Assembly (NCBI GenBank): GCA_943787575.1
Contig: CALSMY010000014.1
Span: 1 to 64,000, forward strand
Direction: 5' to 3'
Length of the DNA stretch: 64,000 nucleotides
Source: an uncultured Opitutales bacterium
GTDB taxonomy: Bacteria > Verrucomicrobiota > Verrucomicrobiia > Opitutales > Seribacteraceae
Part shown: positions 43,039-60,458 of the stretch, piece by piece
How positions within the stretch are numbered: position 1 is the first letter of the stretch
Layout: every line of letters starts with the position of its first letter
Position numbers and translations under genes: made by a program
Notes under the pieces: model-generated
Seen by the model: only the letters and a program-made list of their open reading frames with translations
The model's database searches: none
Told to the model about the DNA's origin: nothing

Positions 43039-44079
43039 ATGATAAGCAACCTATTCGGCTTTCTTTCCAATGATATTGGAATAGACTTGGGCACGGCCAA
43101 CACCTTGGTTTTTGTCAAGGATCGTGGAATAGTGCTTCGTGAACCAAGTGTGGTCGCTCGCTACAAAACGAGTAAGAAAGTATGTGCAGTAGGTTCCGAA
43201 GCCAAACGTATGCTTGGTCGTACTCCCGGAACTATCGAAGCTTTGCGCCCCATGAAAGACGGTGTTATTGCTGACTTTGAAATATCCGAAGCCATGCTCC
43301 GATATTTCATCGAAAAGGTTGATAAACGAAAATTGGTTCCCCCGCGCGTTGTCATTGCTGTTCCCTCTGGTATCACTGCGGTTGAAAAACGAGCAGTGAA
43401 AGACTCTGCAATTAGAGCAGGAGCTCGGGAAGTTTTATTATTAGGTGAGCCCATGGCTGCATCTATTGGTGCTGGCCTCCCTATCCATGATGAATACGCA
43501 AACATGATTGTGGATATTGGTGGTGGAACAACCGAAGTTGCCATTATTTCAATTTCTGGGGTTTCCTTTCAACGAAGTATACGCGTTGGAGGAGATGAAT
43601 TAGATGAAGCCATAGTTGCCTACATGAAAAAAGCCTACGGTTTATTAATTGGTGAAAGAACTGCGGAAGAAATCAAGTTTTCCATTGCGTCAGCTTCACC
43701 GTTAGAATCAGGTGAGCTAAGTATGGATGTAAGAGGTAGAGATTCTACTGCGGGCTTGCCCAAAACCATTCATATCACTTCCCAGGAAATTCGAGAAGAA
43801 GCACTCAAGGAAGTGGTTCAACAAATTGTTGATTTAGTTAAAAATGCTCTGGATCGTTGCCAACCCGAACACTCCGCTGACCTGATCGATCGTGGGGTTG
43901 TACTGGCCGGTGGTGGTGCTCTTATTAGAGGATTGGATCAAGTTATCAGTGATGCAACTGGCTTAACTGTGATTCAGGCAGAAGACCCATTAAGTTGCGT
44001 GGCTAATGGCACAGGCGAATTCCTCAACCTGCTCGACTCCTTGAGTCGCGAACAGATTGATCGATTGGTAACCCAATAA
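43039..44079 (+). CDS. mreB: Rod shape-determining protein MreB
   Basis: IGIDLGTANTLVFVKDRGIVLREPSVVA; AMLRYFIEKV; MIVDIGGGTTEVAIISISG. Confidence 0.98.
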   Translation: MISNLFGFLSNDIGIDLGTANTLVFVKDRGIVLREPSVVARYKTSKKVCAVGSEAKRMLGRTPGTIEALRPMKDGVIADFEISEAMLRYFIEKVDKRKLVPPRVVIAVPSGITAVEKRAVKDSAIRAGAREVLLLGEPMAASIGAGLPIHDEYANMIVDIGGGTTEVAIISISGVSFQRSIRVGGDELDEAIVAYMKKAYGLLIGERTAEEIKFSIASASPLESGELSMDVRGRDSTAGLPKTIHITSQEIREEALKEVVQQIVDLVKNALDRCQPEHSADLIDRGVVLAGGGALIRGLDQVISDATGLTVIQAEDPLSCVANGTGEFLNLLDSLSREQIDRLVTQ

Positions 44080-44088
44080 CTTTTCACC

Positions 44089-44964
44089 TTGGCCGCTCCC
44101 AAGGACAGGCCCAAGTTTGGACCCTTTTTTATATTGGGTGTCTTTTTTGCTCTTTTTATCGGACTGCCATCTAGTTGGAAAATATTCACCCAATCAGCCT
44201 TTGATGAATTCCAGGCCCCCATTTGGGAAATTACTTCGAGAATATCAGATTTAAGTAACTACTGGGGGCACCAGGCTGATTCTAAAAAAACTCTTATCGC
44301 CAAAAACCGTGATCTTGCAAGAATTCGTGCAGATTGGACGGTTCACGAAAACAACAAAAAAAATTGGGAAAATGAAATATCCCGTCTTAAAGACCTAAGA
44401 TCACGCCTAGTTATCCTGCAAAAAGAGATCGGGATTGACCCTGAAGTTTCCTTCCAACCTATAATCGCTAGGGTTACCCACCGTAATCTCAGTTCATGGT
44501 GGCAAGAACTATCCTTACGAAAAGGAAGCAACCAAAAGATATCCCCTGGTATGGGTGTAGTTTTTTCTCATGGAATTGTTGGAAGAATTAAACGATCTGG
44601 GTTTAATTCCTCAAAAGTTGAGCTATGCACAAATCCAAATTTTCGAATCGTTGCCCACTTTCAAGGAGATGACAGACCGGTAACTTTTCAGGGTGACGGA
44701 ATCCTTCCCGGTGGTAAACCCATGGGCGTAGTCTTAGATGTGCCTCACGACATAACCATTGAAAAAGGCAAACCACTGTTTTTAAAAACATCTGCCCTGG
44801 GAGGTACCTTTCCAAGCGGCCTTCATATTGGAACAGTAAGAATGCTCGAGGAAAGTGGGGATGGACTATTTAAAAATGGTAAAGTTATCTTACATAAAGA
44901 CCTAGGAAAAGTCCCCGAAGTCTCAGTACTCAGACCTACTCCCCCTCAAGGAAAACAGGAATAA
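44089..44964 (+). CDS. mreC: Rod shape-determining protein MreC
   Basis: N-terminal TM, coiled coil, ..ARVTHRNLSSWWQELSLRKGSNQKISPGMGVVFSHGIVGRI; follows mreB. Confidence 0.9.
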   Translation: MAAPKDRPKFGPFFILGVFFALFIGLPSSWKIFTQSAFDEFQAPIWEITSRISDLSNYWGHQADSKKTLIAKNRDLARIRADWTVHENNKKNWENEISRLKDLRSRLVILQKEIGIDPEVSFQPIIARVTHRNLSSWWQELSLRKGSNQKISPGMGVVFSHGIVGRIKRSGFNSSKVELCTNPNFRIVAHFQGDDRPVTFQGDGILPGGKPMGVVLDVPHDITIEKGKPLFLKTSALGGTFPSGLHIGTVRMLEESGDGLFKNGKVILHKDLGKVPEVSVLRPTPPQGKQE

Positions 44965-44967
44965 GAG

Positions 44968-45498
44968 ATGGCTTTAAACCGACTTTTGGGCGTACTTATC
45001 TTAGCCAACTTCATATTTATCGTAACCTTATCCTTATTTAATTCGGTAATTGGGAAGTGGGGCTTTTTTCTTTATCTGCCTGGCCTTTTTTTTATTCCAC
45101 ACTATCAACTACTTGGATTGAATCGTAGTTTGCCTGCTCTTTTTCTTAGTGGCCTAAGCTTCGATCTTTTTTTTAACCATACTCTTGGTTTCCATGCGTT
45201 TGCCATGTGCCTAATTTTTCTAATCGCCCGGGAATTTTTGCACTTAGGAAAGCAAAGCTCTATCCAAATTACTATTTTTCAGCTCATTGCCAACCTGATC
45301 ATGGCTATTCTATGGGCAATACTCTGCACCTCATTCCAACCAAGCCTTTCATCTTGGACATGGACACGTTTTTTGATCGAACTTCCACTATCTATGGTTT
45401 TTCTCATTCCACTTTCGCTATGGTTTTCTAGCTTTTGTAATAGTTTGATTATGAGAATAAAGCCCACATCCGAAGGACTTCCTTTGCTTAATAAATGA
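44968..45498 (+). CDS. mreD: MreD-like membrane protein
   Basis: Five or more TM segments, position between mreC and mrdA. Confidence 0.75.
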   Translation: MALNRLLGVLILANFIFIVTLSLFNSVIGKWGFFLYLPGLFFIPHYQLLGLNRSLPALFLSGLSFDLFFNHTLGFHAFAMCLIFLIAREFLHLGKQSSIQITIFQLIANLIMAILWAILCTSFQPSLSSWTWTRFLIELPLSMVFLIPLSLWFSSFCNSLIMRIKPTSEGLPLLNK

Positions 45499-48083
45499 AG
45501 TTTTTTGAGAAATATTTTCCTGAAACTCGACGCTTTCGAATTTTTGCAGGAGTCTACCTTGGTCTTTTTCTTGTTTTATTTGGTTATTTATTTTTTAGGC
45601 AAATTTGGGAGCGGGATGCTTACCTGGAAAAAGAGCGTATTCAGGGTCAAAGAAGAATTCTAAAACCTGGAGCTAGAGGAGATGTTGTAGACCGAGAAAA
45701 TAATCTCTTAATTGGCAATCGGGCACATTATTCAGCTACCCTTCATCTTGAGCTTCTTAATAGAAAAATTTGGGAAGAAAAAGTTAAACTTCGAAGATTA
45801 TCTTATTCGATGCGAGAGGAACTCTCTAAAATTCCTCATTTGGATTTAGTCGATTTACTTAACTTTAGCTTTACTAATGATCATGTAAGCAAACGAGCAA
45901 TTACTCTTAGCGGGAAGGTTATTTCACCCGATAAAAAAGTAGCCGTATGGATAAACGAAAAACAACTAAGTGTAAAACAATCACGAAATTCATGGGTTTG
46001 CAGAATCGAAAAGTCTTTGACCAAAAAATTCCGGTCTTTTCGAGTTGTTAATTCGGAAAACCACCTAGTTGCCGATATTGGAGGTTTGTTTTCTTTGGAT
46101 TATGATCTGGATTCCCAAGGCCTGCCCCTAGCAAAGGTTAATAGTGCAAAGGTTGACCAATCGTGGCTTGGAAATGTTCTCAATGGGACCGAGGATGGGT
46201 CTCTTGATTTTTCGGTAAACGGATTTTCACATTCCTGGGAAGCAAGATATACTGTGGTACAAAATTACCTAAGTGAAGTAAATCGCTTAACTGGTCGAAA
46301 TAGCGAGTTAAGTATGAACGATATTCAAAAACATTGGCGTAGAAAACTCGTTCTTCCTCTGGAAATCTGTGGTGATTTAACGAACGAAGAATATGCAGTT
46401 CTAGTAGAGAAACTTCCCCCAGAATCGCCTATTCAGGTTCAAGCAAAAGCGGTTCGGTATTATCCGGAAAGTTACCTTGCTTCTCATGTTTTGGGATATG
46501 TGGGCAGTGGCTATGAAGCAAACTTAGATTCACTTGCCGGTGCTGACCTCGCTACTTTTGAACTCCAAGGAAGAACAGGTAAGGCTGGTGTTGAAAAAGC
46601 TTTTGACCATCAATTACGCGGCAAAGACGGTGCGGACATTTGGATCGTCAATCCAATGGGTTCGCGTTTTGAAAGAGTGCAAAGGCAAGCGTCCGAGAAA
46701 GGAAAGTCTGTCCACCTTACCCTTGATCTCGATCTTCAAAAAGTTGCCGAACAATCAATCGATCGAATGGTTACGAAAGTGGCCAGCCAAAGGATTTTAC
46801 CAGATCGGGATTGGGCTCGGACTTTAGAGCGCAGAACGAGTCGTGCCCTACTTGGGACGAATGAGACAGAAGTTCGTGCTGAATTACTACTCTCCGCTTT
46901 CAAAGATGCCCCTTTCCCCTTAACAGGAAAACAAGCATCAACCGTGGCCGGTTTCAAAGGGACAGAAGAGGATGCTCAAAGACTCCTTAGGCGTCTTTAT
47001 TCGCAAGGTGTTTTACAAAGGGCGGCAAATAACCCAGGAGCTTTTTCCCTATCCCCCCCCCTTCCGCCCCCCGGTGCTGCTGTTCTTCTAGATTTAGAAA
47101 CCTTTGAAATTCTTGCTCTTGCCAGTAAACCAAATTACGATCTTAGCAGTTTAACTCCTTATATTTCACAGGCTGCTTATGATGAAATTCAGAGGAATGA
47201 GGCTTGGTTACCTCGGGCTTGGCATCCCGGCTATGCTCCGGCATCTCCATTTAAATTAGTAACCGCACTTGCGGGACTAGGAGCCAACACGCTGGACCCG
47301 AGCGAAGAATTAAAGTGCGAGGGGATTTACCGGGGTATGAAATGCCATGTACACCCGGGACAGCATGGAGAATTGAATCTTCGTCAAGCAATTGCTCAGA
47401 GCTGCAATGTTTACTTTTTTAGATGTGCAGAAAGGATGGGACATGAGCATTTAATTTCTGAAGCAAGAAGAGTGGGAATGGACCAAAGACCTTTGTTGGA
47501 TCTCCCATCATTAAGAGACTCACCTATCGTCCCGGATCCGACTTGGAAGAAGAATCGAGTTGGAGTTAATTGGACAATGGAAGATACCTTTAACATATCA
47601 ATTGGCCAAGGCGGTCTCAGACAAAGTCCACTACAAATGGCTTGTTTTATGGCAAAATTGGCGGCCAATCTTAAGTCTTTCGACCCTAAAATCACGATCA
47701 ATCCGAAGCCTGAATCCATTCCTTTGGAACCGCTCACAGATGATGCAAGCAGGCAAGCCATCGTTGACGGTATGATCTTGGCTACTAAGGAAGGAACGGC
47801 GAGAAGGTGTCAAATTGATGGAGTCTTGGTTGCGGGCAAGACAGGTACAGGGCAATGGCGTAACCACAATATGAAATTAAACCTCGCATGGTTTATCGGT
47901 TTTGCTCCGGCAGATTCTCCCAAGGTTGCGGTATCTGTATTAATCGAAGGCGTTATTCCTCAAGACCAAGTACAAGGAGGATTGACCGCTACGCCAATCG
48001 CCCGAGACTTACTTGCGGCCTACTTTGCAAAATATCCGAATTCCTTATCATCAATAAAACATAATACCCCCCAAGCCCCCTAA
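45495..48083 (+). CDS. mrdA: Penicillin-binding protein 2 (class B transpeptidase) with extra domains
   Basis: GARGDVVDRENNLLIGNRA; SxxK in APASPFKLVTALAGLG; SxN in AQSCNVYFFR; VAGKTGTGQWRN; 862 aa. Confidence 0.93.
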   Translation: MKFFEKYFPETRRFRIFAGVYLGLFLVLFGYLFFRQIWERDAYLEKERIQGQRRILKPGARGDVVDRENNLLIGNRAHYSATLHLELLNRKIWEEKVKLRRLSYSMREELSKIPHLDLVDLLNFSFTNDHVSKRAITLSGKVISPDKKVAVWINEKQLSVKQSRNSWVCRIEKSLTKKFRSFRVVNSENHLVADIGGLFSLDYDLDSQGLPLAKVNSAKVDQSWLGNVLNGTEDGSLDFSVNGFSHSWEARYTVVQNYLSEVNRLTGRNSELSMNDIQKHWRRKLVLPLEICGDLTNEEYAVLVEKLPPESPIQVQAKAVRYYPESYLASHVLGYVGSGYEANLDSLAGADLATFELQGRTGKAGVEKAFDHQLRGKDGADIWIVNPMGSRFERVQRQASEKGKSVHLTLDLDLQKVAEQSIDRMVTKVASQRILPDRDWARTLERRTSRALLGTNETEVRAELLLSAFKDAPFPLTGKQASTVAGFKGTEEDAQRLLRRLYSQGVLQRAANNPGAFSLSPPLPPPGAAVLLDLETFEILALASKPNYDLSSLTPYISQAAYDEIQRNEAWLPRAWHPGYAPASPFKLVTALAGLGANTLDPSEELKCEGIYRGMKCHVHPGQHGELNLRQAIAQSCNVYFFRCAERMGHEHLISEARRVGMDQRPLLDLPSLRDSPIVPDPTWKKNRVGVNWTMEDTFNISIGQGGLRQSPLQMACFMAKLAANLKSFDPKITINPKPESIPLEPLTDDASRQAIVDGMILATKEGTARRCQIDGVLVAGKTGTGQWRNHNMKLNLAWFIGFAPADSPKVAVSVLIEGVIPQDQVQGGLTATPIARDLLAAYFAKYPNSLSSIKHNTPQAP

Positions 48084-48720: not shown

Positions 48721-51700
48721 CTATTTGGTTGTCATCACATAAACACCATCCCAATCCGCTGCTGGAGGGTTTTCTCTCATCACCTTGCAACGATCTATTA
48801 AGATCATTGATGGATTGTCTTTCACCCCTGGGGTTACGCCTGGTTTATTTGGTTCCATCCCCTTCGCTTTTTCAAAAAGGCCCAAGGCTCCATCCCAATC
48901 TTGCAACAAGTATTTGTCTATTCCCTGCTGAAAACAATCTAGGCAATCTTGTGTTTCCTGAGTTAACTCAGACAGAAAACCGGTTGGTTCATACATGGCA
49001 ACAGGTTGAGATCTGCCCTTGACCACAATTCTATCCAGATACCGAAAGGCAATATCATCTTTCGTCTTTTCAGAAGCCAACTTGGTTTCCTCAGTAACCA
49101 TGATGTATGCCCCGTAAGCTTTGGCTCCACTCTCACACCGAGCTGCCAAGTTCACCATATCGCCCATCATCGTATAATTGAAACGATCCAATGCTCCCAT
49201 ATTTCCAACCGTAGCGGTTCCAGTGTTACAACCAATACGGGTTTGCATTTGAGTGACAAGCCCATGACACTTCCCCCACTTTTCAACCTCAGGCACCCAC
49301 TTTTCCCGAAGAGCAATTTGCCTTTGCTGCATTAGGATAGAGGTCCTTACAGCTTGATACGCATGATCTTCCATAGGGATAGGTGCACCATACATGGCCA
49401 CAATTGCATCTCCTATGTATTTGTCTAATGTGCCTCTTTCCTCCTGTAAAATATTGGTCATCTCGGTCAAATACTCGTTCATTAAATCAACCAGACCCGT
49501 AGGAGTGAGAAGTTCCGAAAAACTGGAAAACGCTTGAACATCACTAAAGAAAGCGGTGATTGCCGTTTCCTCACCACCCAAGTGATGGTTCTTTTCCAGA
49601 TGCAACCATTTCCTCAACCAAATCGGAAGAAACATAACTACCGAACATACCCTTCAATCTACCCTTAGCTTTTTGTTCGATCACCACCATAGCGGCCAGC
49701 CCAATAAACGAAGTACTTAACCCAGCACAAGCAGGGACGGTAATAGGCCAGATCACATGAGTCTGGGAAAAAGTCTCGAAGCCAAAATAAACATAAGCTA
49801 TTAAAAGAATAAGACCACTAGCTTGTACTATACTTGCCCTTTTTCCTTGGTATACAGCAAGGAAAGCCATAACAAGACAAACTCCCAAAGTTGCTAAGTG
49901 ATCCGCCCTAATCGGCAAACGATGTAAGTATTCTTGGTGGGTTAAAGTTTTGATCAAGTTCCATGTACGCTAACCTTAGGGACTGAAGACTGATCAAATG
50001 GAGTAGGTGCCAAATCTTGAAATGTAGCTTCCTCAGGACCAATCAAAACAATTGAATCATTAAAAATATTAAAAAATGATTCAATTCGAGCCATTTCTTC
50101 TTTTTGACCAAGAAGAGTTTTTTTATTATTCGCGATAAGTTCCTTAACAACTTTAATGAAATTCTTATATTCCGGATTTTGGGGATCTTTAGAAAGTGCA
50201 TCTTGAGCTTCTTTTATCTTCTGTTGACCTTTTTCTATAGCTTTTTCCAATTCATTTATTTTCGCCGAGACCGTGTCGTGATATCTTCCATAATTTAAAA
50301 TATCAACCATTCCACACATAGGGTTATATTCTGACTCAATGCTTGCTGGAATAAAGTAGTAAGCAATACCATCCAACACCTGAATTAACTCATTAAGTCC
50401 GGGTAGATCTTGGAGTTTATCAGAAGAATTAACGAGTAATTTTTGGGCTATATCAATAAGTTCATTTTCCAACCCTAAATCGGTCATTGCTTGTATTAAA
50501 CCTTCGTTACCTATCAATACTTTCAAATTCTCGACACGATCTAGAGTAAGTCGAAAAATTTTGGGAATTACTGACAAATATGCTTCGATATCACCATCAC
50601 TGTAGTCTTTTTTAGCTTTCCTTATGAGCACATCTACGGTCGAAAGTTGAGACCAAGACGAGAACCAGTTTACTTCGATCCATTGCCCCTCGGTCAAGGG
50701 TGCCTCAAGCAGAACTTCCCCAGAAAGGTTATATAACACCATATTCTCCCGGTTTTGGGAAATCTCAACCTGTTCAGGACCAATTCCGTAATAAGCCAAT
50801 AATGCCTCTAAACCTAAGGTGAAAAAATTCTCATTTCTGAACAAAGGAACTTCATTAGGCAAAGAGTCGACTAAAACACCAGCCGATTTGTCTCCCTCAG
50901 CTCTTTTGTACACCAATCGCAAGGTGTGATTTGTTTCTACTAGCTCTGTGTCAACCAAACCTTGAAGCTTAGAAAGAGTAAACTGAATATTCTCCACCGT
51001 ATTTTCAGTTTCAGTGAGTTGGTCCCTTGCTTTATTAAGTTTAACTGCCGTATCTGCTAATACCGGGAGGATATCCAGTAATTCCTTATCTTTAAGAGCT
51101 TGCTTACCTGAGAGGCGTTCTAAGACATCTAATATCTCTTGGTCCGCGACTGGCTTACCAAGTGCTTCAATTTGCTTTAACAAATAAACTCGCCTCGACA
51201 AATGACCTTCAATTTGAGGGTTTATTACAGCAGACAAACCGGGGTTTGTCTTTAAAGTTTCTTTAAAGTTACCAATAACTGTATTTATTTCAGCCAATTC
51301 GGTCTGAATTTCATCAGGAGAATAAACATTTTCCCACCCACCTGTTTCCACTACTGAAAGAACTTGCCAATAAATAAAGCCTCGCTTGGAAATCCTCTCA
51401 TCTATTTGTGGCCTTAAGGTAGTTGCAAGAGTAGGAACTGCCTTCAATGTACCTTTAAGAGTAGTTATTTCATCTCCCAAACCCTTAAGATTGTCTTTCA
51501 ATTTTTGTAATCGATCAATTCCACTCTCAATTTCTATTTTCTTTTGATTGTAAGTTGAATGCTCTGCTTCAGCTTCTGCTATCTCCTTCTTACAGAAAAC
51601 CATTAAATCTAAATTCTTAGACAATTCACTCTTTAGATCGTCTATTGAGGTTTTGTTTTCTACAGAAGATTCTAATTCAAGAACATTTTGTTTTCCACCT

Positions 51701-52443
51701 AACAAGTTGTATGCGTGTGCCTTGCCACCCCCAGGGAACCATAAAGGAGCCCACCTTGGAATTTCATCTACTGCACGGAAAGGTGGCACTGAAAAAGATC
51801 CTAACCTACCAATATACTTTCCGTTTTTATAATTTTGTAAGGGGTAAGTTGGTGACTCAGGATAAGTAAAGTCACTACTATTTTCAGAATACCCCTCCGA
51901 AAAAAGAGGTGCAAATGCACTGGCATTTACAGGTTTAACGAAGGGTGTTTGTACTCCCGAATATAAACATCCCAAAATTACTTGATTTGGAAATTTATCC
52001 ACCAATTGGCCCATGGCTAAGTCACTGCGATATGAATTTTTGCGAGGTACCATTTTCGACATACTTTTGGGAGTAAAACCAAAGTCGAAGCCTATTGAAC
52101 GAGCACGCCCTTTTTCCAAAAGAGTAAAGGCAGTATCACGAAAAAAAGCACGATCCCAAGGACGCTCCCCTACTCCGTCCATTGCCAATGTAGCTGCATC
52201 AAAGTTGACATAAACTAACTTGGGTATTCTGGGAACCGTTTTGTTGTTCTTCTACTTGTAATTCTGTCCAATGCATTCTCGTCAAAATCTCTGAGGAATC
52301 TCGCCGCGGTATTGTTTTCTCAAATCGACCGATTTGATTTTTAAATAATCGAGAGTTCCGAAATGATTCAGAGCAACCCAAATAAATGGGATAAAGAGAA
52401 GGGCGAAAAAAGTAAGTTTAGATTCTTTGCTTAATTTAAACAT
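48721..52443 (-). CDS. CHASE2-domain adenylate/guanylate cyclase (class III), with about four indels across the gene
   Basis: N-terminus from ATG 52443 (MFKLSKESKLTFFALLFIPFIWVALNHFGTLDYLKIKSVDLRKQYRGEIPQRF), CHASE2 in 49954..52188, TM segments in 49571..49957, catalytic domain in 48721..49635 ([63 protein letters not shown]). Confidence 0.82.
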
Positions 52444-52599: not shown

Positions 52600-53613
52600 A
52601 TGACATCTTCTTTATCACCATCCACTCCACCAGCTCCTGAAGAGCAAGAGAAAATCAAAAACGAGGCGTCTTGGGTTTCATTACTCAAACAAGAAATCGG
52701 ACAAGTAATTGTCGGGCAAAAATACCTCATCGATCGCTTGGTGATTGGATTGCTTGCCAATGGTCATGTCTTGCTGGAAGGCGTACCTGGATTAGCCAAA
52801 ACCTTGGCGGTTAAAACCCTGTCCGATTGCATGCAGGGAGATTTTAAACGAATACAATTCACACCCGATCTTTTACCCGCCGATGTCGTGGGCACTTTGA
52901 TCTACAGTCCGAACCAAGGCGAGTTTACCACCAAGAAAGGCCCTATCTTTACCAACCTTCTTCTTGCGGATGAAATAAATCGGGCACCGGCTAAAGTACA
53001 GAGTGCCCTACTTGAGGGCATGCAGGAAAGACAAGTTACTATTGGTGACGAGACTTTTCCCCTGCCCTCACCTTTTCTGGTTTTAGCAACAGAAAACCCT
53101 ATTGACCAAGAAGGTACTTATCCTTTGCCCGAAGCTCAGATGGATCGGTTTATGCTAAAACTCGTGGTCGACTATCCAGATCGTTCTGAGGAATTAAAAA
53201 TTCTTGATGCCAATGCCAATGTATCGGTTCAACGAAAAGTCAATCCAGTGGTTGATGCAGAAACTATTTTTCGGTCACGGAAATTGGTTGATCAAATCTA
53301 TTTGGATGAAAAATTAAAGGGCTACTTGGTTGACTTGGTCCTCGCTACCCGGAAACCATCCGAACACGGACTTAGCGACCTTGAACCTTTTATCCGTTTT
53401 GGGGCATCTCCTCGGGCAACCATCAGCCTGGCATTGGCCGCAAAAGCAATTGCATTCACACAGGGACGAAGTTTTGTTACCCCGCAAGACCTTAAGGACA
53501 TTGCCCCAGATGTTTTGCGTCACCGAGTCATTGTAAGTTATGAAGCTGAAGCAGAGAATGTAAACAGCGACGAAATTATCCAAAGAATTCTCGATACCGT
53601 ACCAGTGCCCTAA
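52600..53613 (+). CDS. MoxR-family AAA+ ATPase
   Basis: LEGVPGLAKTLAVKTLSDCM, FTPDLLPADVVGTLIYSP, LLADEINRAPAKVQSALLEGMQERQVT, ATENPIDQEGTYPLPEAQMDRF. Confidence 0.97.
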   Translation: MTSSLSPSTPPAPEEQEKIKNEASWVSLLKQEIGQVIVGQKYLIDRLVIGLLANGHVLLEGVPGLAKTLAVKTLSDCMQGDFKRIQFTPDLLPADVVGTLIYSPNQGEFTTKKGPIFTNLLLADEINRAPAKVQSALLEGMQERQVTIGDETFPLPSPFLVLATENPIDQEGTYPLPEAQMDRFMLKLVVDYPDRSEELKILDANANVSVQRKVNPVVDAETIFRSRKLVDQIYLDEKLKGYLVDLVLATRKPSEHGLSDLEPFIRFGASPRATISLALAAKAIAFTQGRSFVTPQDLKDIAPDVLRHRVIVSYEAEAENVNSDEIIQRILDTVPVP

Positions 53614-53666
53614 TTTAGAAATCCTTACGCCTCTTCAATATGGTCCTAAAGTAAGGCACTTAATTT

Positions 53667-54596
53667 ATGAACGAAAATGACCCAGAATTTACGCGGGAAA
53701 TTTTGCGGAAAGTTAGGCAGATCGAAATCCGGTCCAATCGATTGGTATCAGAAGTTTTTGCCGGTTCTTACCACAGTGCATTTAAAGGTCAGGGGATTGA
53801 CTTTGAGGAAGTAAGAGAATATCAGCCTGGAGACGAAGTACGATCGATCGATTGGAATGTTACCGCCAAAACTGGAATTCCTTTTGTTAAGCAATACCGA
53901 GAAGAACGAGAACTAACCATTTTACTTATTGTCGATATTTCTCCGAGCACATCCTACGGATCGGTTCATCACAGCAAACGAGAAAAACTAGCTGAACTTG
54001 CTGCGTTACTTGCTTTCTCTGCAAATCGAAACGGAGATAAAGTCGGACTTCTTTTAGTTTCAGACCAGATTGAATTGTATTTGCCTCCAACCAAAGGTCA
54101 AAAACATGTTTTGCGAATCCTCAGAGAAGTCTTATTTCGACCCGCCGAAGGAAAGGGTACAAACCTAAGCGAAGGGGTACGAATTGCGAACCAAGTAATG
54201 AAAAGACGAGCAGTGGTTTTTTTGCTCTCAGACTTTATTATTCCAGAACATGGTTCGGAAGAGGAATCTAATACGAAGATCTTTCTTGACCAGATGGCAT
54301 CCACCCGCCGTAAGCACGACCTTATTTGTGCACGGGTTTATGACCCGGTTGAAAGAGAACTACCTGCTGTTGGCTTAGTTGAAATGGAAGATCCAGAAAG
54401 TGGAGAAAAATTCACGATTGATACATCCGATCAAAATACCCAATCACAATACAAAAACTCATTTACTGAAAAAGAAGAAGAGTTTTCTCGAGATTTGAAA
54501 AAACGCGGAATTGACGCCTTTGTTTTTGATAATCAATCCGATTATTCTAAAGAACTTTATACATTCTTCAAAATGCGAGAAAAGAGGAGACGATAA
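53667..54596 (+). CDS. DUF58 family protein
   Basis: SGSYHSAFKGQGIDFEEVREYQPGDEVRSIDWNVTAKTGIPFVKQYREERELTILLIVDISPS. Confidence 0.95.
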   Translation: MNENDPEFTREILRKVRQIEIRSNRLVSEVFAGSYHSAFKGQGIDFEEVREYQPGDEVRSIDWNVTAKTGIPFVKQYREERELTILLIVDISPSTSYGSVHHSKREKLAELAALLAFSANRNGDKVGLLLVSDQIELYLPPTKGQKHVLRILREVLFRPAEGKGTNLSEGVRIANQVMKRRAVVFLLSDFIIPEHGSEEESNTKIFLDQMASTRRKHDLICARVYDPVERELPAVGLVEMEDPESGEKFTIDTSDQNTQSQYKNSFTEKEEEFSRDLKKRGIDAFVFDNQSDYSKELYTFFKMREKRRR

Positions 54597-55215
54597 TGGT
54601 CTTTTGGACAAGCAATCAAAAACCTTATCTACTGGATCCTACTGTTCTCGTAGACTCCCCCATCCCTATTTTTAAGTCCCTTGGCCAATTAGCGAAAGAG
54701 AACATTTGGGGTATCCTCATCGTCCTGGCTTTTTTGCTAAGTACTTTATTGTTATATTTGTATAAAAAAAAGATTAGTCCAATTGAAGAAACCAAAAAAC
54801 TGAGCCTGAGATTGATCCCTTTACTGAAGCATTAAAACAATTTAACGAATTAAGCACATCAACACCCCGACCTAAAGCAAAGCCGTTTATTTTTAAGCTA
54901 TCTGAAATCTTGCGCCTCTATGTTGAAAGGCAATTTAAATTGCCAGCTATGGAAAAAACAGGGGAGGAATTCATTCAGGAAGTAAGTATTCATCCCTTGC
55001 TTCGCCAAAAGTTTGAAATGCCTTTAAGGGAGTTTGTTCAGCGGGGAGACAGGATTAAATACTCAGCTGAAAATTTCGATTCTAAAGAACTTTCAAACTT
55101 ACTTGATTCTGCCCGTGAATTTGTTTGCGATGCTCAAAAGGATTGGGAAGAAAAACGGCGCATAGACGAAGAAAGATTAAGTTCGGAAAAAGCCCTAAAC
55201 AGTCCATCATCATGA
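54596..55215 (+). CDS. DUF4381-like membrane protein, frameshifted at about 54795-54805
   Basis: 54596..54835 (TM) continues in the next frame: PEIDPFTEALKQFNELSTSTPRPKAKPFIFKLSEILRLYVERQFKLPAMEKTGEEFIQEV; position between DUF58 and batA. Confidence 0.7.
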
Positions 55216-56267
55216 GTGATTTGTGGGAAGCTTTTCATTTCGCAGATCCCGCATGGGCGTTGGGAGTTCTCGTCTTGCCTCTAATTTATTGGATTAAGAA
55301 AAAATTAAACTATGAAAGAGCGACTGTTTTTTTCCCAACTATTTCACAGGTTAAAAGATCTTTAAAACTACGCTCCAATCGATGGACTGCGCTGCCCCGA
55401 GTATTTCGAAGCCTTGCATTGATCTTTCTCTTTCTTGCTTTGTGCCGCCCGCAGTTTGATCGCAGCACGACGACCATATTATCCAGTGGCGTTGACATCG
55501 TTCTCGCTGTTGATTTATCCGCTTCTATGCTTGCTCTCGATATGAGTGAATCCAATTCTCTTGATCTCACGAGACTTGATGTGGTTAAGGAGGTGCTTAA
55601 GAAATTTATTGAGCAACGAAAGCATGATCGGATCGGAATAGTCGCATTTTCAGTCGATCCTTACTTAGTAAGTGCATTGACTTTGGACAAAGAACACTTG
55701 CAAAGGAACTTGGACCGATTACGAGTCGGTCTTACACACCAAACAGGAACAAACCTAGGATCTGCTCTGGCTGAAGGAATTAATCGATTGCGCCCATTGG
55801 AATCGAAATCAAAAATTCTCATCCTGCTAACAGATGGAAAAGACGAGCCTGCACCGCCACACAGCCCTCTAATTTACGCTAATGGTGCAAAATCTGACGA
55901 AATCAAGATCTACACCATTGCTATAGGTTCCAGCACCAGAACCCGCACCTATTTGTTTGACCCCTCCACCCGAGATCTCCTTCGTGCTCCCAACGGTCTT
56001 CCCATTGTACGGGTTGCCGACTATCCGGTAGACAAACAGATCCTTGGACAAATAGCCAAAACCACCGGAGCTCAGTTTTTTGAAGCACAAGACAAAGAGG
56101 CGCTTGAATCTATTTACAATGAAATTGACCGCTTGGAAAAATCTGATGTCGAAATGGGTGTGAATGCACTTTTTGAAGATTTATACTTTTGGCCCTTAGG
56201 TGCATCCATTCTTTTTCTATTTATTGAATTCATCCTTTCCCGGACTCGGTACCTTCGAATCCCATGA
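55212..56267 (+). CDS. batA: BatA-like VWA-domain membrane protein
   Basis: VLAVDLSASMLALDM MIDAS, GIVAFSVDPYLVSALTLD, ILLTDGKDEP, C-terminal TM; start at ATG 55212. Confidence 0.9.
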   Translation: MSDLWEAFHFADPAWALGVLVLPLIYWIKKKLNYERATVFFPTISQVKRSLKLRSNRWTALPRVFRSLALIFLFLALCRPQFDRSTTTILSSGVDIVLAVDLSASMLALDMSESNSLDLTRLDVVKEVLKKFIEQRKHDRIGIVAFSVDPYLVSALTLDKEHLQRNLDRLRVGLTHQTGTNLGSALAEGINRLRPLESKSKILILLTDGKDEPAPPHSPLIYANGAKSDEIKIYTIAIGSSTRTRTYLFDPSTRDLLRAPNGLPIVRVADYPVDKQILGQIAKTTGAQFFEAQDKEALESIYNEIDRLEKSDVEMGVNALFEDLYFWPLGASILFLFIEFILSRTRYLRIP

Positions 56268-58663
56268 ATTTCTTTGCACAACCAGATCTTCTACTTGTGA
56301 TTCCTTTAATTCTGGGAGTTCTTATTTTGGTATACTTAAACAGTCGCAAGGTTGCCCGCGAGAGATTGTCACAGCTAATCGCATCAAAACTCCTTCCGGC
56401 CGTTATTCCCCATTTTTCAAGAAAGAGAGAAGGAATAAAGATCGCATTCTTTTTTGCTGGTATGATCTTCCTCTTATTATCGCTGGCAGGCCCTCAATGG
56501 GGATTTTCTAAACGTACGGTGTCTCCCCGAGGGATTGATCTACTCATAGCCGTTGACTTGTCTAAAAGTATGCTTGCCCGAGATGTTCGACCCAATCGTT
56601 TAGAGCGGGTAAAACTGACTCTATCTAATCTGCTCGAGAAAGTAAAAGGTGACCGACTTGGACTGATTGCATTTTCAGGCTCTGCATTTTTACAATGCCC
56701 ACTGACTCTTGACCATCAGGCATTTGTAAAAACATTAGATGAATTAAAAGTGGGACTCATACCAAGGCCTGGGACGAATTTAGCACGGCCCATACAAGAA
56801 GCTGAAAGATCTTTCTCCAAAGACGACACTGATAAGTTTCTCGTGCTTATTTCTGATGGTGAAGACCTAGAAGGCCAAGGATTGATGCAAGCAAAAGAGG
56901 CCGCGAAAAAAGGCATTCGGATTTTCACCATAGGCATTGGATCAGATCAAGGGGCCCGAATTCCAACCGACCCCCTTAATCAATCACCACAGAATTTTTT
57001 GAAAGACAGAGCAGGGACTGAAATTCTTACAAAATTAGACGCAAATGCCCTAATTGACATTGCCCGAACTACTGGTGGACAATACCTTCCCATCGGCCCT
57101 ACTGGTGAAGGTCTCACTCATGTATTCTCGGAGCTACAGGCTTTTGGTCAGAAAAAATTACGTGAACAATTATCCACAACTTTACCTATTAACCGCTATC
57201 AAATATTCGTGATTCTTGGCATACTTTTTTTAGTGATCGAAAACCTTTCGCCTTCATCCAAGAAAAATATACTTAAGTCTGCGACTAAGTGTTTTCCGGT
57301 CGCTATATTCTTAATGTTTGGGTGCTCACAACCCGACAACACTAGGAGGGCGGAAGAGGCAACATTGAAAGGGAATCACCTTGAAGCAGCCAGGCTTTAC
57401 TCCAATGAAATTGATTCACTCAAAGATGGTGATGATTCCCTCAAAGTACTTCGTTTAAATGCTGGCCTCTCTTATTTACAAGCTGGCTCATTCCCAAAAG
57501 CCGAAGAATTTCTTCAGGCAACCCTTGAGCAATCGACGGATGATCCAGAAATTCAGTCAAAAGCAATCAACGCGTTGGGCAATTTATTCTACGCCAAAGC
57601 AAATTCATTTTTGGACCAGCAAAATGTAAACGAAGCTAGAAAGTCTTGGGAAAAAGCGAGAGAGTTTTACTCGGCAGCCTCGCAGATTGACGCCAACCCG
57701 TTAGCCGAAAAAAACCTGGATTCTTTAAATGATCAAATTCAGAACAGAATCGAATCTTTAGTGAGCAAGATTCAAGGATTGGTTTGGCGAGATATCAACG
57801 GAAATGGAAAACGGGAAGAAAACGAACCTCTCCTTAAAGCTAGAATTTTTTGGGATAAAAATGATGATGGTGAACACAACGAATCCTTAGAACCTGCAAT
57901 TCCTGGGAACGAAATGGGCCAGTTTGCATTTGAATGGATTTCGGGAATTTATCCAACATCCTTAAAGCTCGCCTCTATTATCCCTGATCAAAATGAAAGT
58001 TCACCCTCAATTCTCTTACCTCTTTTTCCTCCCCCCCCTCCTCCATTCGAAGCCTCTGGAACCAGAAATCATTTGGTAGAAATTGATAAGCCAGGCAGTC
58101 TTTTTATCCCTATGCCCTGGCGAGCCGCACCTTCGCTCAATGGAATAGTTTGGAATGACTCGAACATAGACGGCAAAGTTGATGATAACGAATCCGGAAG
58201 CACAGCAGCCACACTGTTCATCGATAAAAATGGCAATTTTCAACTAGACGATAATGAAACATCCTTTAAACCATCCGATGATGGCAAGTTTTCTCAAATT
58301 GTCCCACCCGGACAATATTCTTTGTGCATAAAACCAGATAACCCTGATGCAAATGTAACTTACCCAATTGAAGAGCATAAAGCTTATTTGACTTGGGTAG
58401 ATTTCGAGCAATCCTCCAAGCCTATGTTTTTTGGAATTCAAGACAGATCTGAAGGAAATAGCTCATCCGAAAGCAGTCCTCAAAACAATCCCAATCCTGA
58501 AAGAATCGAGGAAGATGAAGAAAACAAAGAGGCAAAAACTCCCTCAACTGAAGAAGTAAATGCCCTCTACGAAAGACTTTTACAAGAAACTGAATCAAAA
58601 AGTGAACCGTTGGAAAACGACATCCCAAATTCTAATCCTGTCCAAGCTGGCAGAGACTATTAA
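56264..58663 (+). CDS. BatB-like VWA protein fused to BatC-like TPR region and a C-terminal Asp/Asn-rich loop region
   Basis: LIAVDLSKSMLARDVRPNRLERVKL..LISDGEDLEGQG; lipobox-like FPVAIFLMFGC; TPR-like AGLSYLQAGSFPKAEEFLQATL; WRDINGNGKREENE, WNDSNIDGKVDDNE. Confidence 0.85.
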   Translation: MNFFAQPDLLLVIPLILGVLILVYLNSRKVARERLSQLIASKLLPAVIPHFSRKREGIKIAFFFAGMIFLLLSLAGPQWGFSKRTVSPRGIDLLIAVDLSKSMLARDVRPNRLERVKLTLSNLLEKVKGDRLGLIAFSGSAFLQCPLTLDHQAFVKTLDELKVGLIPRPGTNLARPIQEAERSFSKDDTDKFLVLISDGEDLEGQGLMQAKEAAKKGIRIFTIGIGSDQGARIPTDPLNQSPQNFLKDRAGTEILTKLDANALIDIARTTGGQYLPIGPTGEGLTHVFSELQAFGQKKLREQLSTTLPINRYQIFVILGILFLVIENLSPSSKKNILKSATKCFPVAIFLMFGCSQPDNTRRAEEATLKGNHLEAARLYSNEIDSLKDGDDSLKVLRLNAGLSYLQAGSFPKAEEFLQATLEQSTDDPEIQSKAINALGNLFYAKANSFLDQQNVNEARKSWEKAREFYSAASQIDANPLAEKNLDSLNDQIQNRIESLVSKIQGLVWRDINGNGKREENEPLLKARIFWDKNDDGEHNESLEPAIPGNEMGQFAFEWISGIYPTSLKLASIIPDQNESSPSILLPLFPPPPPPFEASGTRNHLVEIDKPGSLFIPMPWRAAPSLNGIVWNDSNIDGKVDDNESGSTAATLFIDKNGNFQLDDNETSFKPSDDGKFSQIVPPGQYSLCIKPDNPDANVTYPIEEHKAYLTWVDFEQSSKPMFFGIQDRSEGNSSSESSPQNNPNPERIEEDEENKEAKTPSTEEVNALYERLLQETESKSEPLENDIPNSNPVQAGRDY

Positions 58664-58667
58664 TTCA

Positions 58668-60458
58668 ATGAATCGATTCTGTCTCCTCATTTTTTGGCTT
58701 TTTGTCTTATTTACCCCTGCCCTATCCTCGGCCGAGGCTGTTCGCATAGAAACCTCTTTTGATCCGCCAAATATAACTCTGGCAAACACCTCAACCTATA
58801 AAATTGTGGTTCATGGAAGTCAGCAAGGACCAGCAGGTGGTCTTCCCCAAATAGATGGATTAAAGTTCTCCAACCCACCGCAAACTTTTCGATCAGCTTC
58901 GTTTATAAATGGTGTTCCATCCGTTCGATTTGAATTAAGCTTTACCGTAACACCTCAGAGGGAAGGCACTTTTGTTGTTCCGACCTTACAGCTTACCATT
59001 GAGGGCAAATCCTACCAAGCTCCTGCTGCCAAGCTTTCAGTGGTTCCTCCAACCCAAGCGGATAAAATTCGCCAAGCCGAGCGTCGCAACCAGGAGAATA
59101 ACTTAAAACAGGCTGCTTTTCTTGAATTTCAATGCCCCCGTCCATTTCTGTTTAAAGGAGAAACCGTAGAGGCAACTGTTAGTCTCTTTTTGTGGGATAA
59201 ATTACCGGTTACGCGAATCGATCAAGTTCCTTTAAAAATTGGAGACGGAATTTCCATGACGGAATTGGGCCAACCAAACGAAGAACGTGGAGTACGTAGG
59301 TTTAACAAAAGCTATTCCGTATATTCGTGGAAATTTGGCCTTACAGGAGCTCTACCCGGAAAGCATGACCTATCTTTTGGCTCATCCATTCGTGTTCGTG
59401 TTCGCAACAATAGAAACTCCCGCCTGTCTAACCCATTTTTTAATGATCCATTTTTTGGGTTTGGCAGAGAGGAAAGCCTGGAAATTAAAAGTCAACTGCA
59501 ACAGCTTGAAATTCGACCTCTGCCTTCCCTACTTCGACCTATGGGCTTTCAAGGTGCAATCGGTAAGTTATCGATAAATTCATCCCTCGATACCAATCGA
59601 GTCTCGGTCGGTGACCCCATAAAACTTACCTTGACGATAAGTGGTAGCGGAAATTTTGCAGCAATGCCGGCTCCCAAACTATCAATAGGAGAAAATTTTA
59701 AAGTCGGCCCACCCGCCTTTTCTTTTAAAGGCAACGAGGCAACTATGCAGAAAGGCTCTCAAACTTTTGAATTTGTTGTTACGCCTTTGCAGGCTGGTTT
59801 AATTGATATCCCTCCTGTAGACTTTTCCTTTTTTGACCCATCGGAAGAAAAATATTTTTCGATAAGTTCTCAATCTCATTCTATTCGTGTAGATCCTGGC
59901 GAAATATGGACGGACCCAAAGCAGAACAACCTCTCTACCCAAAACTCAGTTCCCTCTGTTTCCCGGCAAGATTTGTTCCAAACCGAATCAGAACCAGGTC
60001 AGTGGGAAGAAAACTTAAGCACCCCTAAGCCATTAAAATCTTCCATTTTTTGGATTGCTCAATTCGGTTGCACAATTGTTGCTGCCAGTATTTTGATCTT
60101 TCGTATTCGAAGAAGGAATCCAAAGCTGGAACTACGTAAGCAGAAAGAAAAACTTCTCGATGGAAAAATCCGTGAAGCTTTAAAACACAAAGATACTTCT
60201 GGATTCCACCAGGCCCTTCGAAGGAAAATTCGTTTACGGGTTGGTATCGTCTGCGATCAGACAAACACCTCTGCTCTATCGAGCTCGGAGATCATCAATC
60301 TTCTAAGACAGAAACAATTTCCCGAAAATGTTGTCACTGATATCCTCAATCTTCTCAAAGTGTGCGATGATTTGGAATATGCCCAAAATCCTAATAATGT
60401 CACCACTCTTGAACTTGTATTTAAGAATGCATCTGCAACTTTGAAAAATATTAAATGA
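58668..60458 (+). CDS. batD: BatD-like protein
   Basis: Signal peptide; SFDPPNITLANTSTYKIVVHGSQQG; FLFKGETVEATVSLFLWDKLPV; C-terminal TM; start at ATG 58668. Confidence 0.88.
   Translation: MNRFCLLIFWLFVLFTPALSSAEAVRIETSFDPPNITLANTSTYKIVVHGSQQGPAGGLPQIDGLKFSNPPQTFRSASFINGVPSVRFELSFTVTPQREGTFVVPTLQLTIEGKSYQAPAAKLSVVPPTQADKIRQAERRNQENNLKQAAFLEFQCPRPFLFKGETVEATVSLFLWDKLPVTRIDQVPLKIGDGISMTELGQPNEERGVRRFNKSYSVYSWKFGLTGALPGKHDLSFGSSIRVRVRNNRNSRLSNPFFNDPFFGFGREESLEIKSQLQQLEIRPLPSLLRPMGFQGAIGKLSINSSLDTNRVSVGDPIKLTLTISGSGNFAAMPAPKLSIGENFKVGPPAFSFKGNEATMQKGSQTFEFVVTPLQAGLIDIPPVDFSFFDPSEEKYFSISSQSHSIRVDPGEIWTDPKQNNLSTQNSVPSVSRQDLFQTESEPGQWEENLSTPKPLKSSIFWIAQFGCTIVAASILIFRIRRRNPKLELRKQKEKLLDGKIREALKHKDTSGFHQALRRKIRLRVGIVCDQTNTSALSSSEIINLLRQKQFPENVVTDILNLLKVCDDLEYAQNPNNVTTLELVFKNASATLKNIK

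Follow-up and report, generated by a model that had tools for sequence, protein, structure and literature searches.

How does a sensor domain that is usually compact come to span about 760 residues, and what could the additional sequence do? CHASE2 is a common bacterial sensor domain that is ordinarily extracytoplasmic, runs from TM1 to TM2, and occupies ~250-300 aa. The window analyzed here, a stretch of 64,000 nucleotides from an uncultured Opitutales bacterium, contains a minus-strand ORF (49954..52188, open up to 52248; 764 aa) in which the initial annotation had recognized a CHASE2 sensor split by long inserts. That reading held: PF05226 matched the ORF in two separated stretches (E = 2e-11, 44.4 bits against a gathering cut-off of 26.3), and a whole-genome profile search placed the CHASE2 halves ~1.7 kb apart. 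No NCBIfam family scored above its own cut-off for this ORF. The catalytic domain matched PF00211 (78.7 bits, E = 5.6e-22), and all of the class III catalytic residues are present (FSDVQ, DKYIGD, MMGD and NLAAR, which supply the metal Asp pair, the Lys/Asp specificity pair and the Asn-Arg pair). Judged by its sequence, the gene 52443->48721 on the minus strand is a CHASE2-type transmembrane class III adenylate cyclase, with cAMP as its predicted product.

The gene had been described as in need of repair, and we found that single-base indels do break its frame. The comparison was made by tblastn with L073, an intact ortholog from the Opitutales MAG HE327_NSB097 (85% identical over the sensor; open frame of 1,251 residues), which matched the window at 52443-49960, 49960-49577 and 49593-48724 in alternating frames. 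Relative to L073, the indels fall near 52291-52250, 49961 and 49583. The same architecture occurs uninterrupted in a single frame in more than 20 relatives; the frameshifted sequence was left unmended and intact orthologs were substituted for it. When the window was compared with 55 matched ORFs of a same-genus relative, five genes, including the cyclase, changed frame; a sixth flagged case was a match between BatA/BatB paralogues and was discounted. The changes in the four other genes lie at ~3890, ~25700, ~26915 and ~54795 relative to the same-genus genome G006. Sequencing or assembly error is therefore the simpler and likely reading of the cyclase frame breaks, and the pattern suggests scattered single-base errors in the assembly. 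The gene and its parts are as follows.

48721..52443, minus strand: CHASE2 class III adenylate cyclase gene, frameshifted in the assembly (tblastn with intact ortholog L073)
52360..52443, minus strand: N-terminus and TM1 (MFKLSKESKLTFFALLFIPFIWVALNHF) (translation; hydropathy peak in L073)
51688..52221, minus strand: CHASE2 core block 1 (YVNFD...PWDRAFFRD...FDFGFTPK...GKAHAYNLLGG) (Pfam PF05226; alignment with compact relatives)
50938..51687, minus strand: insert 1, ~250 aa, predicted coiled-coil stalk with NP-box hairpins (compact relatives have at most 41 aa; ortholog-model helices of 72, 30, 24, 27 and 60 residues)
51355..51501, minus strand: NP-box copy 1 (...TLKAVPTLATTLRPQIDER...) (leave-one-out HMM E = 5.6e-11)
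51163..51306, minus strand: NP-box copy 2 (...TLKTNPGLSAVINPQIEGH...) (leave-one-out HMM E = 8.4e-18)
50650..50937, minus strand: CHASE2 core block 2 (TLRLVY...FTLGLEALLAYYGI...NWFSSWS) (aligns to compact relatives)
50332..50649, minus strand: insert 2a, helical domain of ~106 aa (lengths in members; helices 601-702 in the model)
50284..50331, minus strand: CHASE2 core strip (NPMCGMVDIL) (N, P and C invariant in the alignment; found in compact relatives)
50077..50283, minus strand: insert 2b, helical hairpin of ~70 aa (model helices of 41 and 36 residues; lengths in members)
49958..50076, minus strand: CHASE2 core block 3 (FFNIFNDSIVLIGPEEATFQDLAPTPFD) (Pfam PF05226 profile positions 183-220)
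49577..49957, minus strand: membrane bundle TM2-TM4 and linker, in a shifted frame (tblastn, 93% identical to L073; L073 hydropathy)
48721..49593, minus strand: cyclase catalytic domain (FSDVQ, KYIGD, MMGD, NLAAR) and C-terminal tail (PF00211 E = 5.6e-22; sequence)

Alignment with relatives revealed a sensor with three insertions, ~430 aa in total, in an otherwise ordinary CHASE2 core: insert 1 follows GKAHAYNLLGG, 2a follows NWFSSWS and 2b follows NPMCGMVDIL. The initial annotation had proposed inserts of about 260 and about 180 residues. Long inserts are real, and relative to compact relatives the spacers measure 250 and 191 aa, but the inserts number three, not two. The core strip NPMCGMVDIL lies inside the second spacer and divides it into 2a (~106 aa) and 2b (~70 aa), so what had been counted as one spacer is 2a plus 2b. 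In compact CHASE2 cyclases of Opitutaceae, Cerasicoccus and one Akkermansia MAG, the insert 1 site holds 0-36 aa and the insert 2 site mostly 32-48 aa; over all compact relatives, the range at the first site is 0-41 aa. Nearly all inserted members carry 106-118 aa at the 2a site (133 in one fragment), compared with 8-22 aa in the measured compact or intermediate relatives, and nearly all carry 72-75 aa at 2b. Hydropathy of L073 places the CHASE2 region between transmembrane helices, as is usual, but at ~760 aa it lacks the usual compactness; because three insertions account for this span, we filed the protein as a CHASE2 variant rather than a typical member. None of the inserts aligned to ordinary CHASE2 structure. 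No Pfam family covers them (none matches more than 2 of 20 insert 1 members or 2 of 22 insert 2 members), and no known domain was matched consistently within the inserts.

Insert 1 had been thought to hold a diverged internal duplication, and this was borne out by two certain copies, 64 aa apart, of a 49-aa motif that we call the NP-box (consensus LxxxIxNFxxTLxANPxLxAVIxPQIxxR). With the window and L073 left out of its construction, a profile still detected the two window copies (E = 5.6e-11 and 8.4e-18), and a profile from second copies alone detected the first at E = 1.7e-8. In a control of 500 residue shuffles and 500 heptad-column shuffles, no sequence scored above 3.8 bits, whereas the genuine copies score 27.9 and 49.7 bits. 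Boxes were called confidently in 32 proteins, of which 21 carry two copies, eight carry three and three carry one; 27 of the 37 spacings are 56, 63 or 70 aa, and most of the remainder are 64. Two relatives carry in-frame tandem duplications at the DNA level, one within the cyclase gene of L100 (6838-7360; 210-bp unit, 91% match) and one in insert 2 of L042 (4942-5269; 174-bp unit, 97%). Judged by these DNA matches, each is recent growth of the repeat array. We also considered the NP-box as a general domain of other genes and rejected this, as every match in 57 relative genomes falls in the cyclase gene. An hhalign comparison of insert 2b with the NP-box gave a probability of 49% over 21 columns, which is no more than a hint that the two are homologous and that insert 1 arose as a duplicate of 2b.

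We examined the shape of the inserts by AlphaFold2 on an intact ortholog (948 aa, 33 sequences, pLDDT 85.6, pTM 0.73). Insert 1 was modeled as helices at 263-334, 336-365, 375-398, 400-426 and 433-492, with breaks at each NP-box; the outgoing helix has 72 residues and the returning helix 60. At 1.5 Angstrom per residue, a 72-residue helix would span ~108 Angstrom. Inserts 2a and 2b were modeled as a helical domain (601-702) and a helix pair of 41 and 36 residues, respectively. The model of L100, which has three boxes (pLDDT 82.4), has helices of 57 residues out and 56 back, with three 27 + 29-residue units between these outer helices and loops of low confidence from one unit to the next. With its long outgoing and returning helices and a break at each NP motif, insert 1 is most readily interpreted, on these models, as an antiparallel coiled-coil stalk. 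Since one, two or three units occur, the NP-box would most simply be a hairpin turn, with each unit adding no net rise; both this and the stalk direction are argued from helix lengths alone and not from model coordinates. By fold and by sequence, the closest solved match to insert 1 is an Smc antiparallel coiled coil (Foldseek E = 4.9e-3; sequence HMM E = 1.3e-4); the fold hits to this insert are generic, weakly significant coiled coils. Fold searches of the PDB returned just coiled coils and large assemblies, mostly with poor TM-scores and with no single structure spanning the whole sensor, and a sequence search found no solved CHASE2 structure. Three observations support the proposal that the inserts form a periplasmic stalk or docking element: compact relatives lack them, AlphaFold2 predicts long helices, and they lie between TM1 and TM2, where CHASE2 is extracytoplasmic.

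The inserts diverge in sequence at nearly constant length. Across 17 two-box members, mean identity is 28% for insert 1 (length SD 2.1 aa), 38% for 2a (SD 0.6 aa) and 46% for 2b (SD 0.5 aa). When the window was compared with L073, CHASE2 block 1 had a dN/dS of 0.06, and the values for insert 1, 2a and 2b were 0.24, 0.18 and 0.23, with the 2a/2b split in this test off by about 10 residues; insert 1 is the fastest-evolving part (dN 0.136). Diverging sequence at constant length suggests that the length of the inserts is under selection. Together with the heptad-multiple steps, this constancy suggests that selection acts on reach or on coiled-coil register.

The inserted form is narrowly distributed. 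Whereas the CHASE2 domain is widespread, being present in 239 of the class's 384 genomes, insert 2 was found in 37 genomes out of 373 from the order Opitutales, 35 from the window's own family and two from one other; within the former, nearly every genome that yielded the gene has the inserted form. An even sample of 388 genomes from the phylum Verrucomicrobiota showed insert 2 in the window's genome only, and this sample included no other identifiable member of the two families. Found in just two families, the inserted form is not a widely annotated one. A literature search for CHASE2 with coiled coils or in Verrucomicrobia found nothing relevant, and CHASE2 with a coiled-coil arm is apparently a new sensor layout. 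A search for the cyclase in phages gave no match. One MAG, AC_MB256, holds two different insert-bearing cyclases, L076 and L084; the ORF of L084 equals in length that of L086 from another genome and has an identical catalytic domain, making contamination a possibility.

A core tree built without the insert columns is nested, running from the compact relatives through L104, also compact, and L107 to L105 and the family with all three inserts. L107 is intermediate, with an insert 2 of 123 aa that is mostly 2b. Inside the family, the clade L042-L045 (100/100 support) has just 20 aa at site 1 and an insert 2b of 209-283 aa (for L045, the value is that of insert 2 as a whole). NP-boxes occur in the enlarged 2b of three of these four members and were detected with a profile that left these members out. 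The flanks of L042, L043 and L045 place all three at the same genomic position, and these genes are therefore orthologs in which the array is gone from one loop and present in another. The series can be read stepwise: compact, mostly 2b, all three inserts, array lengthened, array in another loop. As such, it offers a natural set of variants for studying the signal route to the CHASE2 dimer and selection on the length of a periplasmic sensor.

The cyclase adjoins mreB-mreC-(mreD-like)-PBP2-redoxin (43039-48083) and MoxR-DUF58-BatA/B/D (52600-60458). It lies on the strand opposite to these neighbors, so no shared operon is implied. The neighborhood is conserved across the family and also in the compact relative L104; thus, location beside rod-shape and Bat genes does not explain the inserts. 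Sensing of envelope strain by the inserts, as the initial annotation had suggested, is possible but not supported: the sole hint of it is this location beside mreB-mreC-mreD-PBP2 and MoxR/Bat, which the compact relative shares. The genome encodes three class III cyclases and four cNMP-binding proteins. Two of the four cNMP-binding matches, L177 and L178, lie in long ORFs (472 and 1,076 aa), which by sequence are possible cAMP effectors other than a small CRP.

With moderate confidence, we propose a sensor enlarged by three loop insertions, with a stalk that would reach toward an envelope partner and alter cAMP synthesis. Sequence and prediction show the insertions and where they lie, the repeat, the restriction to this one gene and the constant lengths at diverging sequence; reach and signaling are the inferred parts. 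In this lineage of marine Opitutales, three helical insertions enlarge loops of the CHASE2 fold. The stalk of insert 1 would bear one to three helical hairpins at its far end, each turning at an NP-box, while 2a would add a small helical domain and 2b a second, shorter hairpin. From the inner-membrane sensor, the stalk may extend toward a partner in the cell wall or outer membrane, or toward another protein of the periplasm. Once the stalk or the helical domain is engaged, the CHASE2 dimer could shift and with it cAMP synthesis, and the cAMP might be read by the cNMP-binding proteins of the same genome. There is a precedent in S. meliloti, whose CHASE2 cyclases act, directly or indirectly, downstream of the outer-membrane receptor NsrA (PMC13001267, PMC7529298). 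A more speculative version, which we consider a long shot, is that the NP-box array is a new helical-hairpin repeat family acting as an adjustable periplasmic ruler, in which the number of heptad-step units or the insertion site would set the reach of the cyclase to the wall or outer membrane and cAMP would report envelope geometry.

We weighed the proposed stalk against other explanations. Class III cyclases function as dimers and coiled coils are typical oligomerizers, so the inserts could be a device for dimerization or oligomerization, in which the stalks of two protomers pair or cyclases cluster and stabilize the catalytic dimer without touching the outer envelope. Self-pairing would likewise give constant lengths. 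However, compact relatives with a catalytic domain about 50-56% identical lack the inserts, which are therefore not required for dimerization; insert 1 is predicted by the models to pair within its own chain, and the 2a domain is left unaccounted for. We consider this explanation unlikely.

Near-neutral, lineage-specific expansion of helical loops, which would be tolerated as they point outward from the sensor, would fit the rapid evolution of insert 1, the recent tandem duplications and the copy number of one to three; a passive spacer with no specific partner would likewise evolve faster than the core, as insert 1 does. Yet dN/dS is 0.18-0.24, length is fixed at 28% identity, nearly all family genomes with the gene found have the inserts, and the clade that lacks insert 1 has an enlarged 2b instead. 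We regard such expansion as distinctly improbable. The several single-base indels in the frame would also be expected of a decaying pseudogene whose architecture is a by-product of decay, but this is highly improbable for the window gene, given intact relatives, purifying selection relative to L073 and the frame changes in four other window genes; as a source of the architecture, decay was rejected.

The proposed stalk-bearing sensor resembles several known systems in part. Sinorhizobium meliloti CyaD1, CyaD2 and CyaK (PF05226 + PF00211) have the same order of TM1, extracytoplasmic CHASE2, further transmembrane helices and a cytoplasmic cyclase with all catalytic motifs. To such known CHASE2 cyclases the window protein adds three helical insertions (~430 aa), one with the NP-box repeat; in compact CHASE2 members from the same class the whole match covers roughly 270-400 aa, compared with about 760 aa here. 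Smc/Rad50-type arms, the best Foldseek and HMM analogue, likewise have long outgoing and returning helices joined at the far end, whereas insert 1 is a loop insertion in a periplasmic sensor with predicted hairpin repeats at its tip. We treat the likeness to Smc as an analogy and claim no homology, as the matches are at the level of coiled coils (E about 1e-4 to 5e-3). In FtsEX-EnvC, which has an M23 peptidase, a periplasmic antiparallel coiled coil couples an inner-membrane signal to the cell wall. The predicted stalk is also a periplasmic antiparallel coiled coil, and the insert match to 8tzk is weak, at the level of coiled-coil background; EnvC is a different protein, and the cyclase is without a peptidase domain.
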